A stretch of DNA of 64,000 bases from Halobacteriales archaeon YIM A00010. GTDB taxonomy: Archaea > Halobacteriota > Halobacteria > Halobacteriales > Haloarculaceae. Numbering within the stretch: the stretch's first letter is position 1; every line of letters begins with the position of its first letter. Of the stretch, positions 11,763 through 47,414 are shown in pieces. Under the pieces are notes generated by a model, which saw nothing but the letters and a program-made list of their open reading frames with translations, did no database searches and had not been told where the DNA came from. The DNA lies in the NCBI GenBank assembly GCA_025041175.1, contig JAKCFJ010000003.1, positions 620,001-684,000 on the forward strand. The letters run 5' to 3'. Made by a program: the position numbers and the translations under genes.

Positions 11763-13145
11763 ATGAAACGGCGACAGCTGCTGCAGATGGGAGTCACAGC
11801 GACAACGCTTCCAGGCCTAGCGAACCCCATCAGTGCGAAACCGACGGGTAAACTGCCGATGGTTCTGACTCGAGGACACTTCAAGACGGAACTTACGTAC
11901 GAGGGGAGACGGTTTACTGGGCAAAAGGTTGTTCTGAAAGATGGCCACACGAAGACCGGCTACGACACGAATGGCTCCGTTCCAGGAATCGATCGTGGCT
12001 GCGTTCAGGATCTCACAGTTGTCATTCACGGGCTCGACGTACCGGCATCGGGAGCCATCGATAAAGTCCAAGAATACAAGCGGTCGTTGCAGCGTGCGGG
12101 ATACGAGGGGACGGTCATCGGCTATAGCTGGGACTCGGATATAGCGGGAAAACTAGGTTTCGGTCTCGCAGAAGACTGCGCCGATAAGAACGCTCCGAAG
12201 CTGGCACGATTTCTTACGGAGTACCGTCGGGCCTGCCCCAATGGCGTGCTCCGTCTGGTCAGTCACTCACTCGGTGCCCGTGTCATCATGGAGACCCTCA
12301 AGGTGCTCGAAGCCAACAAGAGCGGGATCAAGATCGATTCGGTCCATATGCTCGGGGCTGCCATCGACAACGAGGCACCAACCCGCGAATGGCCAGCATC
12401 ATACAGAGCGTTCGCCAACCGTGTGGGCCACACGTTCAACTACTGGAACAGCGACGATCCCGTCCTGACTTTTGCGTATCCCGGCTGGCCACTCGGAGAA
12501 TCCGGCGTCGAGTGGGGTAACACGCCCCCGAAGAACTACACGGACATCAAAGTGACCGCCCAGGCCGGCAGCAGCCACTCCAACTACATGGCAGTCGCCG
12601 CATGGGTCGTGAATGATATGTACAAGGCCCGAAAGCCCGACGACGGTTCCTCTGGCGGGGGAGGTGATGGCGGCAATGACGGTGACGGCGGCAGCCGATT
12701 CAGCAATGGTGACCAGGTCGAATCGACGACCGATCTGAACACCCGTGCGCGTCCCGACACCGGCTCATCCGTGCGGGTGACGGTCTCGCCGGGAACGACC
12801 GGCAAGATCACGGGGGGTCCCACCCAGGAAGGCGGCTACACGTGGTGGAAGGTCCAGTGGGAGACCGGCGTCCAGGGCTGGTCGGCGGGTCGGTATCTCA
12901 CGCCCGGCACCGGCGGTGGCAGCGGCTCGTTCTCAGACGGCGATCGTGTGGCGTCGACCACGAATCTGAACACGCGGCACCGGCCCGGTCTCGATTCGCG
13001 CGTCCTCAAGACGATGTCTCCCGGAGCAGTCGGCGAGATCATGAACGGTCCCGTCCGAAAGGACGGGTACACCTGGTGGGGCGTCCACTGGCTCGAAGAC
13101 GACCTCTGGGGCTGGTCTGCCGGTCGGTATCTGAAGAAGAAGTAG
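11763..13145 (+). CDS. Secreted alpha/beta hydrolase with two C-terminal SH3b repeats
   Basis: 460 residues. The N-terminus MKRRQLLQMGVTATT followed by a short hydrophobic run and an AxA-type site (NPISA) is a twin-arginine-like signal peptide. The hydrolase domain spans about residues 60-285: a strand reading LTVVIHGLDV (oxyanion HG), the nucleophile elbow SHSLGA at about residue 168, and a late His in SSHSNYM at about 272. A glycine-rich linker (about 298-318) leads to two homologous SH3b modules with matching LNTRARP/LNTRHRP, YTWW and GWSAGRYL motifs. Such modules usually bind cell-envelope polymers. It is likely an esterase or lipase held at the cell surface; the substrate is unknown. Confidence 0.8.
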   Translation: MKRRQLLQMGVTATTLPGLANPISAKPTGKLPMVLTRGHFKTELTYEGRRFTGQKVVLKDGHTKTGYDTNGSVPGIDRGCVQDLTVVIHGLDVPASGAIDKVQEYKRSLQRAGYEGTVIGYSWDSDIAGKLGFGLAEDCADKNAPKLARFLTEYRRACPNGVLRLVSHSLGARVIMETLKVLEANKSGIKIDSVHMLGAAIDNEAPTREWPASYRAFANRVGHTFNYWNSDDPVLTFAYPGWPLGESGVEWGNTPPKNYTDIKVTAQAGSSHSNYMAVAAWVVNDMYKARKPDDGSSGGGGDGGNDGDGGSRFSNGDQVESTTDLNTRARPDTGSSVRVTVSPGTTGKITGGPTQEGGYTWWKVQWETGVQGWSAGRYLTPGTGGGSGSFSDGDRVASTTNLNTRHRPGLDSRVLKTMSPGAVGEIMNGPVRKDGYTWWGVHWLEDDLWGWSAGRYLKKK

Positions 13146-13680
13146 TACAGCATCGAAGTGGCCGTCTCTACCGCCACATACTGAAGGGAGGCAGGTTGAT
13201 TCTTCATGCACAGCCCTCATAGAAAATTAAACCATCGGGGTAAATTTCAGTTCTGATCATGACTTAGAAATCTATCTGCCTGACTCCAGATACGTCTCGT
13301 GCTGTCCGTGGTATCGTCAGCAGGGAACTGATCGGTAGACGCATGCACGATCAGTAGTCGGCGTTGCAATCACGAAGCGGGACGATTTTCCCGTGATCCA
13401 TACCAGAAAACGTCCGCTTCAGCGGATATTTGAACGAGACCGACGTGTCTTTTGTGGTGCGAAAACCGTCACTACAGCCGTTGATGAAGCTCAGTACGAT
13501 CACAACCTTGCTCAACCATCATATTCAGATACTGTATTTTTCTCGATGGATTTGGTGTTCGGCGCGCTCGTTCCACGGTTCACAACGCCGGGCACCCACC
13601 CGAAGAAGATCGAATCCCGAATCACGTTGTGGTTGACGAAAGGGTGATTCGGCTCAATGATGAGCAGTAGTGGCTGTACG
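13146..13680 (+). other. Gene-free stretch
   Basis: Between the hydrolase and the hairpin array. Open frames here are short, overlap one another and match no family I know. The stretch 13500-13650 is open on both strands but shows no start signal. I see no gene. Confidence 0.4.
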
Positions 13681-13686
13681 CGGTCA

Positions 13687-13846
13687 CCAAAACGCGGAGC
13701 GTTCTGGCGTGCGAACGAGACACTTCGCGTCTCGTGAACGTCACCGGAACTCGGAGAGTTCCGGTTGGCACGCAAGACCTTCGGTCTTGCGAACGTCCCC
13801 AGAAGCCTTCGGCTTCTGGTTGGCTCATCAGACCTCTGGTCTGATG
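13687..13846 (+). repeat. Tandem hairpin array A: six 9-3-9 hairpins
   Basis: Six consecutive palindromes, each with two 9-base arms around a 3-base loop, start at 13687, 13715, 13744, 13771, 13799 and 13826 (period 27-29). The arms differ (for example CCGGAACTC, CGCAAGACC, CCAGAAGCC, CATCAGACC), yet four hairpins pair perfectly and two have a single A-C mismatch. Loops are gga, ttc or tct. Linkers of 6-8 bases alternate between a GAACGTC-like and a TTGGC-like form. The right edge runs straight into a dead IS6-type transposase. See array B (45130-45240), which repeats part of this in inverted orientation. Confidence 0.85.
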
Positions 13847-14187
13847 AACGCTATCGACCCTGAAACGAACGAACGAATTACCCTATACAACGCTTACCGA
13901 TACGAAATACGTGATTGCGCAGAGATTCATTGCAGCACGTCGCGAAAACACGACATCCTCGATGCCGGGGCTCTCTTCGATGGTGCGAAATCACTCCACA
14001 GTACATGTCGACATCACGGTCTCGGTCCCTGATATGAACGCCATGGAAAGCAAAACAGTGTCGAATATATCTTTGATATAATAAAATGACGAACAACGTC
14101 GTTCTTGAACTGTTTCAGCAATGTCGACACAGAAACGGCTGACGTGGCTCAGATCATTCGCCGTCGTATGGAATCAGCGTTCTATTT
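13847..14187 (+). pseudogene. IS6-type (ISH14/15-like) transposase remnant, copy 1
   Basis: Translated fragments follow the C-terminal half of haloarchaeal IS6-type DDE transposases: AIDPETNER, a decayed DGAKSLHSTCRHHGL block (VDGAxxLxxACxRHGL in live copies), ERHGKQNSVEYIF and NCFSNVDTETAD, ending near a shifted FAVVWNQRSI. In-frame stops and at least one frameshift separate the pieces, and the N-terminal half is missing. It starts directly at the edge of hairpin array A. It cannot encode an active enzyme. Confidence 0.7.
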
Positions 14188-14349: not shown

Positions 14350-15651
14350 GTGGAAGAAGATACTCCACAGCCAACGAGACGTGACGTGCTGAAAATAAGT
14401 GGTGCTGTAGCGGGGCTCACACTCGGTAGCCCGACGATCGGTACTAGTACAGCGCAGTCCGATCGTGATCCGCGAGCGGATCGCTTGAATGCAAACCAGA
14501 AGTGGCTCACTACGTGGACCGCAAGTCCTCACGAGCCGTCTACTGCACTCGGTGACGATCAGCAGGGGTTCGCGGATCAGACCCTTCGATTGATTGCGCC
14601 GACGAGCCGGGGAGGCGATACGGTTCGCGTGCGCTTGACACACCGGTATGGCGATCGCACGGTGACGTTTTCGGGCGTCACGATCGGTATTCGTGAAGCG
14701 GGAGCCACGCTCGCCGCGGGATCGCTTCGCCCTGTGACGTTCGGAGGCAGTCGTTCCGTCACCGTCCGAGCGGGAGCAAAAGCGCTGAGCGATCCGGTCG
14801 ATCTCTCGGTTGCCCCCGAACAGGACCTCGCGGTCGATCTGTACGCCTCGGATCCGACAGGCCCGCCGACGACACATCAGTCCGCGCGAAAAACGTCGTA
14901 TATCGCCGACGGTGATCGCACTGGCCATCGATCCGGAAACGGATTTTCGAGGTCGTTCCCGTCGTGGTTCTTTGTAGAGGGCATCGAAGTAACGGCGAAA
15001 AAACGAGACAGCACCGTCGTCTGTTTTGGGGATTCGATCACGGACAGCGTGTATCCGAACTATCTCGCTGGTCGTCTGAACGATCATTCATCTGTCCCGA
15101 AAGCCGTGGCAAACGCCGGAATTGGTGGCAATCGCGTGCTTCACGACTCACCGCCAGATTCCGGCTTCGGTGAGAGCGCGCTGGCACGGCTCGATCGGGA
15201 TGTCCTCGCCCAAACCGGTGCGTCCGACGTTATTTTCCTCGAAGGCATCAACGACATCGGATTCGGTGCGACGAGTGACGATGACACGGCAGCAACGGTC
15301 TCGGCCGAGGAGATAATCCACGGCCACAAACAGATCATCGCTCGCGCGCACGCAGCAGACCTCAATATCTTCGGGGCAACGCTGACACCGTTCCAGGGAG
15401 CGCCCTACTACTCCGAGGCGGGTGAAGAAAAACGGCAGACAGTAAACGATTTCATACGTACCAGTAGCGAGTACGACGGGATCATCGATTTCGAGAAGGC
15501 ACTTCGTGATCCCAACCGACCAAAACGAATTCGCCCGAAATACGACAGCGGAGACAACCTCCATCCGAGCGATGCGGGCTATCGAGCAATGGCGAACGCC
15601 GTCGATCTATCCCTACTCAAAGGCAAACCGAGAAACAGAACCCGTGAATGA
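14350..15651 (+). CDS. Secreted SGNH/GDSL-family hydrolase
   Basis: 433 residues from a GTG start. The N-terminus PTRRDVLKISGAVAGLTLG is a clear twin-arginine signal peptide. An N-terminal beta-rich domain (about 50-210) precedes the SGNH fold: nucleophile block FGDSITDS at about residue 226, block II glycine in GIGGNR, block III Asn in GINDIGF, and the catalytic pair in DNLHPSDAGY near residue 403. This arrangement resembles secreted carbohydrate or acyl esterases and rhamnogalacturonan acetylesterase-like proteins. It acts outside the cell; the substrate is not known. An antisense open frame of 301 codons here is a shadow. Confidence 0.85.
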   Translation: MEEDTPQPTRRDVLKISGAVAGLTLGSPTIGTSTAQSDRDPRADRLNANQKWLTTWTASPHEPSTALGDDQQGFADQTLRLIAPTSRGGDTVRVRLTHRYGDRTVTFSGVTIGIREAGATLAAGSLRPVTFGGSRSVTVRAGAKALSDPVDLSVAPEQDLAVDLYASDPTGPPTTHQSARKTSYIADGDRTGHRSGNGFSRSFPSWFFVEGIEVTAKKRDSTVVCFGDSITDSVYPNYLAGRLNDHSSVPKAVANAGIGGNRVLHDSPPDSGFGESALARLDRDVLAQTGASDVIFLEGINDIGFGATSDDDTAATVSAEEIIHGHKQIIARAHAADLNIFGATLTPFQGAPYYSEAGEEKRQTVNDFIRTSSEYDGIIDFEKALRDPNRPKRIRPKYDSGDNLHPSDAGYRAMANAVDLSLLKGKPRNRTRE

Positions 15652-45129: not shown

Positions 45130-45240
45130 GTTTATCAGATCACCGTCTGATGAGCCAACCAGAAATCTTCGATTTCTGGTGACGTTCACGAGACGCGAAG
45201 TGTCTCGTTCGCACGCCAGAACGCTCCGCGTTTTGGTGAC
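45130..45240 (-). repeat. Tandem hairpin array B: four hairpins, inverted partial copy of array A
   Basis: Three clean 9-3-9 hairpins start at 45159, 45188 and 45216, and a weaker one starts near 45134. Read on the minus strand, positions 45240 back to about 45179 match array A base for base over some 60 bases through its first two hairpins. Then two units are missing and the third hairpin has a different but still perfectly paired stem (CCAGAAATC/GATTTCTGG). The array lies 80 bases upstream of the orc1/cdc6 start. Confidence 0.85.
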
Positions 45241-45287: not shown

Positions 45288-45321
45288 TAAGGAAGTGGCC
45301 GACAAACCATTACATCAGACA

Positions 45322-46323
45322 ATGATTCGTGATGCTCGCGTTCTGCACGCCCAGTTCGTCCCGGACGAACTAGAGCACCGGAACGCCGAGATCAACACGC
45401 TCTCGAACACGCTCAAACCGATCATGGACGGTCACTCGGGCAATCCGTCGCTCCTCCTTGGGCCGTCCGGCGCGGGCAAAACGTGTATCGCCCGATTTAC
45501 CGTCGAACGATTGCGAGAGAACGTTCTCGATATCAATACGCAGTATATCAACTGTTGGCAAGATTACGCGCGGTTTCAGGTCCTCTACCGTCTCCTCGAG
45601 ACGATCGGCACCACGGTCGATATCCATCGTCGTTCGACACCGACCGATGAACTCCTCGACCGGCTCCGCCAGTACGATGGGCCTCCATTCGTCGTCATTC
45701 TCGATGAAGTGGACCAACTCGAAGACAATGGCGTCCTCTATGATCTCTACCAACTTCCACAGATCACAATGATTCTCATCACGAACCGTGAGCGGGACCT
45801 CTTTACCCAGCTCGATGACCGACTGACGAGTCGCTTACACCCCAGTGTGCGCATCTCGTTCGAGAAATACCATCTCGATGAACTCGTTTCGATTCTCGCC
45901 GCGCGCGCCCGGTGGGGACTCGTGGACGATGTCATCGAATCGGCCGAATTCGAGTTGATCGCCGACGCAGCGGCGGGTGACGCGCGGATTGCCATCGGGA
46001 TTCTCAGACACGCCGCCCGACTCGCAGAGCAAACCGACACCCAACGGATCACGACCGACGTCGTTCAGCAGGCCATTCCGGAGGGACGCCAGGACGTCCG
46101 CCAGAAAACCATCGAGCAACTCACCACACACCAGCGGGTGCTCTATGACATCGTCCACGAGCATGGAGAGCTCGACCCCAGTACGCTCTATGCGGCCTAC
46201 CGTGACCGCGTCGATGAGCCCAAGACGAACCGGACCGTGCGAAACTATCTCGCAAAAATGGAGCACTATCGCCTAATTCACGCCGAGGGCGATAACCGCG
46301 CTCGGACGTACCGCCCACGGTAG
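45322..46323 (+). CDS. Orc1/Cdc6-family replication initiator
   Basis: 333 residues from the ATG at 45322 (MIRDARVLHAQFVPDEL), the usual N-terminus of haloarchaeal Orc1/Cdc6. AAA+ motifs: Walker A LLLGPSGAGKTCIARF (about residue 48), Walker B VVILDEVDQLED (about 125), sensor 1 ITMILITNRERD and sensor 2 region GDARIAIGILRHAARLA. A C-terminal winged helix (about 255-333) ends the protein. It is shorter than core Orc1 proteins (about 400), as is common for the accessory paralogues found near mobile DNA. Whether an origin lies nearby is uncertain. Confidence 0.9.
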   Translation: MIRDARVLHAQFVPDELEHRNAEINTLSNTLKPIMDGHSGNPSLLLGPSGAGKTCIARFTVERLRENVLDINTQYINCWQDYARFQVLYRLLETIGTTVDIHRRSTPTDELLDRLRQYDGPPFVVILDEVDQLEDNGVLYDLYQLPQITMILITNRERDLFTQLDDRLTSRLHPSVRISFEKYHLDELVSILAARARWGLVDDVIESAEFELIADAAAGDARIAIGILRHAARLAEQTDTQRITTDVVQQAIPEGRQDVRQKTIEQLTTHQRVLYDIVHEHGELDPSTLYAAYRDRVDEPKTNRTVRNYLAKMEHYRLIHAEGDNRARTYRPR

Positions 46324-46693: not shown

Positions 46694-47247
46694 GTTCGCC
46701 GGGGATCGCCCCGCCAACGTTCCTCGCCCCCCGATGGCAGCCAATCGATGGTGACCGATGAGCAGTATCGGGAGGCAGCGGGTGGGGATATTGGCTCGGA
46801 CAAAGTACCTACTCGGGCGAACAGGCTGTTAGAGTTGCCATCTGGGGCATTATCGGGGGAATTATAGAGAGTAAAGGAGAATACCGGTCCTTTAGGGGCC
46901 GGCTGAATCCGACAGACTGGATCGGTTCCACCATTCGTCTCCTGTTTGGTTTCCAGTGCTGAGGCTTAAGTACCAAGCCGACACAGATGGATACAGGAAA
47001 CCCGTGGAAGCAAGCGGATTCCATGGCTCCAACGGAGGCGGCCCGTCCGCCCCAAGCAATGAGACAATCTCCGGAACCAGGTCGGTGAACGTTCGATTCC
47101 TACAATGAATCGAGGCGGTGCCGACTGTAGCAACCACGACAAGACAAGTAACTCCGAGTCTGCTGAGGCCTGCTGGTGTCCCACTGGCTAAAATAACAGT
47201 AGGACATCATACACGGTGGAGGATAGGAGTACCGGGGGCTTGGCATC
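46694..47247 (+). other. Degraded DNA with a possible coding scrap
   Basis: No intact gene. A plus-strand frame at about 46776-46962 reads GWGYWLGQSTYSGEQAVRV and IWGIIGGIIESKGEYRSF and ends at TGA after FGFQC; it looks like real protein sequence but lacks a start. The rest has no feature I can name. Confidence 0.35.
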
Positions 47248-47298
47248 TCGAAAATCGAAGATTTTCGATGACTCGTCAAAAACGCCCTGCGTTTTTGA
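47248..47298 (+). repeat. Tandem hairpin array C: two hairpins
   Basis: TCGAAAATC-gaa-GATTTTCGA at 47248-47268 and a 10-3-10 hairpin (arms TCAAAAACGC and GCGTTTTTGA) at 47276-47298. Arm length, 3-base loop and period (28-29) match arrays A and B, but the sequences differ. Confidence 0.7.
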
Positions 47299-47414
47299 GA
47301 CTCCCAGCAGTCCCACTCGCTCTAGATCATGAGCATCCCACCGGATTCGTACCGATCGGCTGCTCGGTGGTACTGCAAACCTGAAACTCCCACCGCTTGG
47401 GATTCCACGTCGTC

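Follow-up and report, generated by a model that had tools for sequence, protein, structure and literature searches.

A hairpin array within an IS6 pseudogene

The window, by which we mean the whole 64,000-nucleotide stretch analysed here from Halobacteriales archaeon YIM A00010, carries at 13687-13846 six hairpins with 9-base stems and 3-base loops, bounded on both sides by the remnants of an IS6-family transposase pseudogene. The genes next to the array, 11763-13145 and 14350-15651, encode a putative alpha/beta hydrolase bearing SH3-like repeats and a putative GDSL lipase. The hairpins start at 13687, 13715, 13744, 13771, 13799 and 13826, with spacings of 28, 29, 27, 28 and 27, and the last ends at 13846; called with a stem of 9, a loop of 3 and at most one mismatch, four of the six are perfect and two have one mismatch. 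A sequence-only reading of this DNA had described six 21-base hairpins every 27-29 bases with perfect or singly mismatched stems, and our counts bear it out: 30 hairpins qualify in the window against a mean of 10.1 in 60 dinucleotide-preserving shuffles, and the longest run is six, whereas the shuffles yielded not even a run of two at 24-32 base spacing. Folding of the array region gave z = -8.0 as DNA and z = -7.0 as RNA (plus strand).

That reading had also noted that the linkers alternate between two forms. They do, and the alternation is that of linkers inside a larger unit (CGTGCGA, TTGGCA and TTGGCT) with the junction between units, GAAC^GTC, where a caret marks a junction or insertion point; the actual repeat is a two-hairpin unit of about 55 bp and not the single hairpin originally taken as such. 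Three copies of this unit, arranged head to tail and joined at AAC^GTC, make up the six hairpins. Its single-unit form, derived from copies that stand alone elsewhere, measures 52-58 bp and consists of 5'-GTC, a 9-3-9 palindrome A, a linker of 5-8 nt, palindrome B and AAC-3'. The GTC and AAC ends were initially set by the search pattern, and are backed independently by junctions in IS605 elements, tnpB and a Halorubrum repeat. The features are as follows (bit scores and E values refer to R1, the covariance model described below).

13374..13682, plus strand: 5' remnant of the IS6-family transposase pseudogene, ending ...TGGCTGTACGCG at the left array junction; matches array-free IS6 copies.
13683..13739, plus strand: unit 1, 57 bp, GTCACCAAAACGCggaGCGTTCTGG-CGTGCGA-ACGAGACACttcGCGTCTCGT-GAAC; 46.2 bits, E 3.7e-15.
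13740..13794, plus strand: unit 2, 55 bp, hairpins CCGGAACTC/GAGTTCCGG and CGCAAGACC/GGTCTTGCG; 78.9 bits, E 1.6e-27; R1 seed member.
13795..13849, plus strand: unit 3, 55 bp, hairpins CCAGAAGCC/GGCTTCTGG and CATCAGACC/GGTCTGATG; 77.2 bits, E 6.6e-27; R1 seed member.
13850..14096, plus strand: 3' remnant of the IS6 pseudogene, starting GCTATCGACCC...; contiguous with the 5' part in the array-free copies L060, L061 and L067.
45130..45183, minus strand: second array, unit b, hairpins CCAGAAATC / CATCAGACG; 57.3 bits.
45184..45240, minus strand: second array, unit a, the same as unit 1 of the main array in another context; all 57 letters identical, mismatches included.
47245..47301, minus strand: divergent double hairpin, a weak match (25.8 bits, E 2e-07).

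Adjacent units of the main array differ in type and do not look like recent duplicates. The stems had been described as all different; they do vary strongly, but they are drawn from a shared and re-combined repertoire, since 22 distinct units collected from the window's genome combine 8 A stems with 11 B stems in 15 different ways. The second, two-unit array (45130-45240) ends about 55 bp upstream of an open reading frame, 45295-46323, with a Walker motif and a putative Orc1/Cdc6 product.

Searched with the array region, the window's own genome gave 56 matches, some to an 82-base flank and the others to the hairpins. The flank is IS6: an intact relative is an IS6 transposase by NCBIfam (NF033587, E 6.1e-55), and matches in haloarchaeal plasmids carry the same annotation. 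Array-free IS6 copies, in the window's genome and in others, run uninterrupted across the array position (codons WLYA^AVDPE); because they are contiguous there, the array, between 13682 and 13850, is an insertion in a decayed IS6 copy. Several IS6 copies of the window's genome bear arrays at the same codon position, and in a tree of IS6 copies those with arrays are interspersed among those without (support at key nodes mostly 0.75-0.96, with two lower), a pattern that suggests repeated insertion at one IS6 site, or precise loss.

Other double hairpins occur in IS6. One subfamily (L038 1986-2037; L017, L018, L028, L029, L039 and L095) has a double hairpin with CATG loops at a different gene site, which has apparently multiplied along with its IS6. 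Another IS6 pseudogene (L014 1094-1328) contains an array of ten hairpins with linkers CTGTCG and CTGCC, a further related family.

Pairing, covariation and loops

We built R1 from a seed of 12 units of equal length, in which 97.7% of the stem positions form standard pairs and 35 changes are two-sided against 2 one-sided; shifting the partner column by one to three positions lowers pairing to 25-39%. R1 collected 150 matches, 131 of them distinct, with 97.8% pairing, two-sided changes in 18/18 pairs and 385 two-sided against 11 one-sided cells out of 2,322; all nine stem pairs vary in both hairpins. The alignment of R1 matches is model-fitted and holds some opposite-strand readings, so the seed pair count is the cleaner test; the two counts agree on pairing. 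The earlier claim that structure persists here rather than sequence is right.

GNA, or TNC as its complement, makes up the loop of 68% of A and 64% of B hairpins, and the closing pair is C-G in about 99%; the count takes some units in two registers, so that only the fractions are usable, and with 41-43% GNA/TNC among background hairpins at the same loci the enrichment is relative, not absolute. C-GNA-G is a family of very stable DNA mini-hairpins, typified by GCGAAGC. As the stem changes are almost all two-sided Watson-Crick changes and the loops mostly GNA or its complement, it is DNA rather than RNA hairpins that look to be under selection; the near absence of G-U pairs is what complementarity at the DNA level would predict.

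A longer intergenic repeat of Halorubrum (genus g24, L142-L201), CCCCAG...CTGCCCC, has 15-bp arms that lie far apart with other hairpins between them. These arms, too, differ among copies and stay complementary, with 93% Watson-Crick pairing in 46 copies against 72% when randomly re-paired.

Empty and filled insertion sites

The best evidence for insertion came from comparing empty with filled sites. The right region of an IS200/IS605 element is empty as GTGACAGC^GCCGCGACC in L215 (with small changes in L217, L221 and L210), and is filled by exactly one unit at the caret in L220 and L212; the left palindrome of these elements, CACGGC^GGGCGTGAATC, is empty in L215, L217 and L221 and filled in L210, L211 and L220, and at a third site L214 has a unit in reverse orientation. 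Most IS605 copies have no unit at the same site. A Halorubrum (g24) repeat, CTTRCGTC^GCCTRC, lacks the unit in 19 fetched copies and is exactly 55 bp longer in more than 20 others; tnpB pseudogenes have been entered at two sites, GACTACAAC^GCCGCG and CTGTTCAC^GCCGAG, and the IS6 site is TACGCN^GCNGTC, where the left target base in the window is G, not C. The link with tnpB and IS6 elements that the sequence-only reading had raised is therefore real, as units insert into both these and IS605 elements. With respect to the gene they enter, units are found in the two opposite orientations (compare L026/L027 with L044).

No target duplication was seen at the examined IS605, tnpB and Halorubrum repeat sites, where the junctions are clean. 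Across 78 distinct left and 79 right flanks, position -1 is C in 78%, +1 is G in 89% and +3 is C in 80%. Units thus appear to insert cleanly at about C^GCC, mostly between the C and the G and often within other mobile elements, although the empty and filled sites are paralogous copies or come from different species, so that clean loss is not always separable from clean gain. In-frame insertion into a working TnpB, in the manner of Rickettsia RPEs, was ruled out; the examined examples are frame-broken or truncated pseudogenes.

Distribution in haloarchaea

The covariance-model search of haloarchaeal genomes that the earlier reading had proposed showed both wide occurrence and strong covariation, with R1 matches in 142/145 genomes of the order and at least 46 in the window's genome. 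Scoring took at most 39 candidates per genome, which makes the high counts lower bounds. Phylum-wide, 47 genomes had a match, 32/47 of them in the order; matches outside the order were weak except in G309, the sole sampled genome there with clear ones. This genome, from another family of the phylum, has related two-hairpin units (L351, L352 and L353) with CCAAAATGC / GCAAAA, a shorter linker and the ending AAC. In a pattern scan of named genomes, all of the 80 records listed bore haloarchaeal names bar one generic 'Euryarchaeota archaeon' assembly. The phage collection searched gave no unit match, nor was a unit found by R1 in Haloquadratum plasmid PL47 and half of PL100.

A second type of double hairpin, with a TCATCA/TGATGA linker (GTCCGAGAGACC...AACGACC), is found where a number of tnpB genes have their 3' end, and also within IS605 elements (L083 1749-1800; L084-L086; L108 2008-2061; L218).

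Discussion

From these comparisons of sequence we consider it likely that the window array represents a haloarchaeal mobile DNA element, non-autonomous and present here in three copies, that spreads via folded single-stranded DNA. Its clean joining, paired hairpins near the ends, short target and matched arm changes resemble HUH/Y1 single-strand transposition. Moving in this folded single-stranded form, the element would present its two hairpins as the ends that a strand-transferase supplied in trans recognises; once a copy has inserted, AAC^GCC at its right junction would be a target again, and later copies could then enter beside earlier ones, which would explain head-to-tail arrays with AAC^GTC junctions.

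Our leading guess for the moving enzyme, offered tentatively, is an HUH/Y1 (IS200/IS605-type) transposase. The Y1 domain is present in 87/145 genomes of the order and missing from 58, and the median number of units per genome is 9 with Y1 and 5 without it (rho 0.31, ignoring kinship), a correlation to which the location of units within IS605 elements itself contributes. G107 has at least 37 units and no Y1 transposase, and we found no Y1 copy with units as its own ends. As an obligate partner we rejected the Y1 transposase, the correlation being weak and some unit-rich genomes having no Y1. A more speculative proposal, which we think could be right but would not expect to be, is that the folded DNA hairpin pair itself defines an archaea-specific class of mobile element, whose mover reads shape and a few end bases; the stems would then drift only by matched changes in their arms, and the copies would stack into arrays.

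The alternative that fares best dispenses with a dedicated transposase: replication-fork template switching or hairpin-primed repair, for which palindromic repeats of some mitochondria offer a parallel, would copy the element, and arrays would grow by slippage. We regard this as possible, though the less probable course. It gains from the fact that no enzyme tracks the units, from their presence in nearly all genomes of the order, from loops and stems that vary at near-perfect complementarity, and from the second, much longer Halorubrum repeat, whose changing arms are likewise kept complementary (93% versus 72%). Exact boundaries and a common C^GCC target at many unrelated sites, however, point to an enzyme with a site preference, and neighbouring units in the window array differ in type and are not recent duplicates.

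Much less probable is that the hairpins are selected as structured RNA, as terminators, small RNAs or part of a tnpB guide RNA. Many units are located in tnpB or close to it, a gene whose 3' region gives rise to guide RNA in other elements, and the plus strand of the array folds well as RNA (z -7.0); yet hardly any G-U pairs occur (one-sided cells number 11 of 2,322), an Rfam search of the array region gave no match, no T-run follows the hairpins, units face either way with respect to the host gene, and the same site is without a unit in most IS605 elements. Scarcely better, and if anything a shade weaker, are the prospects of palindromes that serve as protein-binding sites, iteron-like or for a regulator, multiplied at regulatory regions. 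Every hairpin is indeed a dyad with a purine-rich 5' arm and one array lies directly upstream of the likely Orc1/Cdc6 gene, but all nine pairs of both stems vary, the enriched C-GNA-G loops bear on the stability of hairpins but not on duplex dyads, and many units disrupt transposase genes. That the array is a fixed part of IS6 or tnpB elements, as its recurrence at one codon position in several IS6 copies of the window's genome might imply, is refuted by array-free copies of the same IS, by the absence of arrays from most IS6 and IS605 copies and by units in unrelated contexts.

Read as a mobile element, the unit is tiny, is found in 142 of the 145 sampled genomes, and has exact borders, a defined target and hairpins with matched changes; it is thus a test case for how palindromic repeats move without a transposase of their own, a question that earlier work did not answer for either CGTC-tagged REPs or the Haloquadratum repeats. 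Were a new strand-transferase responsible, a new transposition system would be present in almost all haloarchaea. The unit also offers a way to explain many unusual hairpins in the tnpB, IS6 and intergenic DNA of haloarchaea, which could otherwise be mistaken for RNA structures.

Comparison with known elements

The unit is a non-autonomous palindromic mobile repeat that fully matches no named family in the open-licence literature. The sequence-only reading, which knew of no named element of this form, is right to that extent, but related elements (REP/REPIN/BIME, SMR-A and PATE) do have names; more generally its view of pairing and of a tnpB/IS6 link stands, while it missed the two-hairpin unit, the dispersed mobility and these relatives. 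Neither outcome that it had named as refuting its view came about, since the array is no fixed part of an IS and the copies do covary. It was also right to set CRISPR aside, as the stems vary, the linkers are near-constant and Rfam gives no match. From MITEs the unit differs in having clean junctions and no target duplication. Mitochondrial double-hairpin elements consist of two adjacent hairpins, dispersed and with variable stems, and are alike in form but belong to a different domain of life.

Bacterial REP/REPIN/BIME sequences with RAYT transposases are thought to be moved by a Y1 transposase through folded single strands. Like them, the units are short palindromes, paired or arrayed and dispersed in many copies; unlike them, they have no GTAG tag, end in GTC (GTT in reverse) and AAC, and are in many cases located within mobile-element genes. 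In Archaea the Y1 subclass present (1.1) is the IS200 type, not one of those associated with REPs (PMC6006769). In the parts of Di Nocera et al. 2013 (PMC3733652) that we draw on, CGTC-tagged REPs, defined by a CGTC tag at one end of a 20-40 bp palindrome, are bacterial, with no known transposase and no archaeal members named; they and the Rickettsia RPEs carry CGTC beside a palindrome, and some lie within genes. As far as that account goes, the unit may be similar in showing C^GTC at one end beside a palindrome, is similar in having no known dedicated transposase and some copies in genes, and differs in being a fixed A-B pair where those are single palindromes and in that its C is usually a target base. 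C^GTC is common at the left end of the unit (C at -1 in 78%), but the GTC was part of the search pattern and the C belongs to the target.

Palindrome-associated transposable elements (PATEs) have IS605-like near-terminal palindromes, no target duplication and 52-bp 'terminal-only' forms (PMC3119063). The unit shares near-terminal palindromes, the lack of target duplication and very short forms, whereas its stems are unlike the local IS605 palindromes (CCCGCCG-ttca-CGGCGGG) in sequence and loop. That units are themselves IS605 ends, as in PATEs, was ruled out: those ends are other palindromes, which units interrupt.

In behaviour the unit is nearest to SMR-A, described in Haloquadratum as about 110 bp long with prominent terminal inverted repeats (HqIRS42, HqIRS43 and HqIRS55; Dyall-Smith et al. 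2011, PMC3119063). SMR-A are transposase-free, leave no target duplication, reach dozens of copies per genome and insert in near-terminal palindromes of IS605-type elements and PATEs, their movement being called enigmatic (PMC3119063). By that description the unit differs in its 52-58 bp, its two separate hairpins and the lack of a long terminal inverted repeat, and also in forming tandem arrays and spanning the order; like SMR-A, it has no transposase of its own, can reach dozens of copies in a genome and enters the palindromes of IS605-type elements without target duplication.
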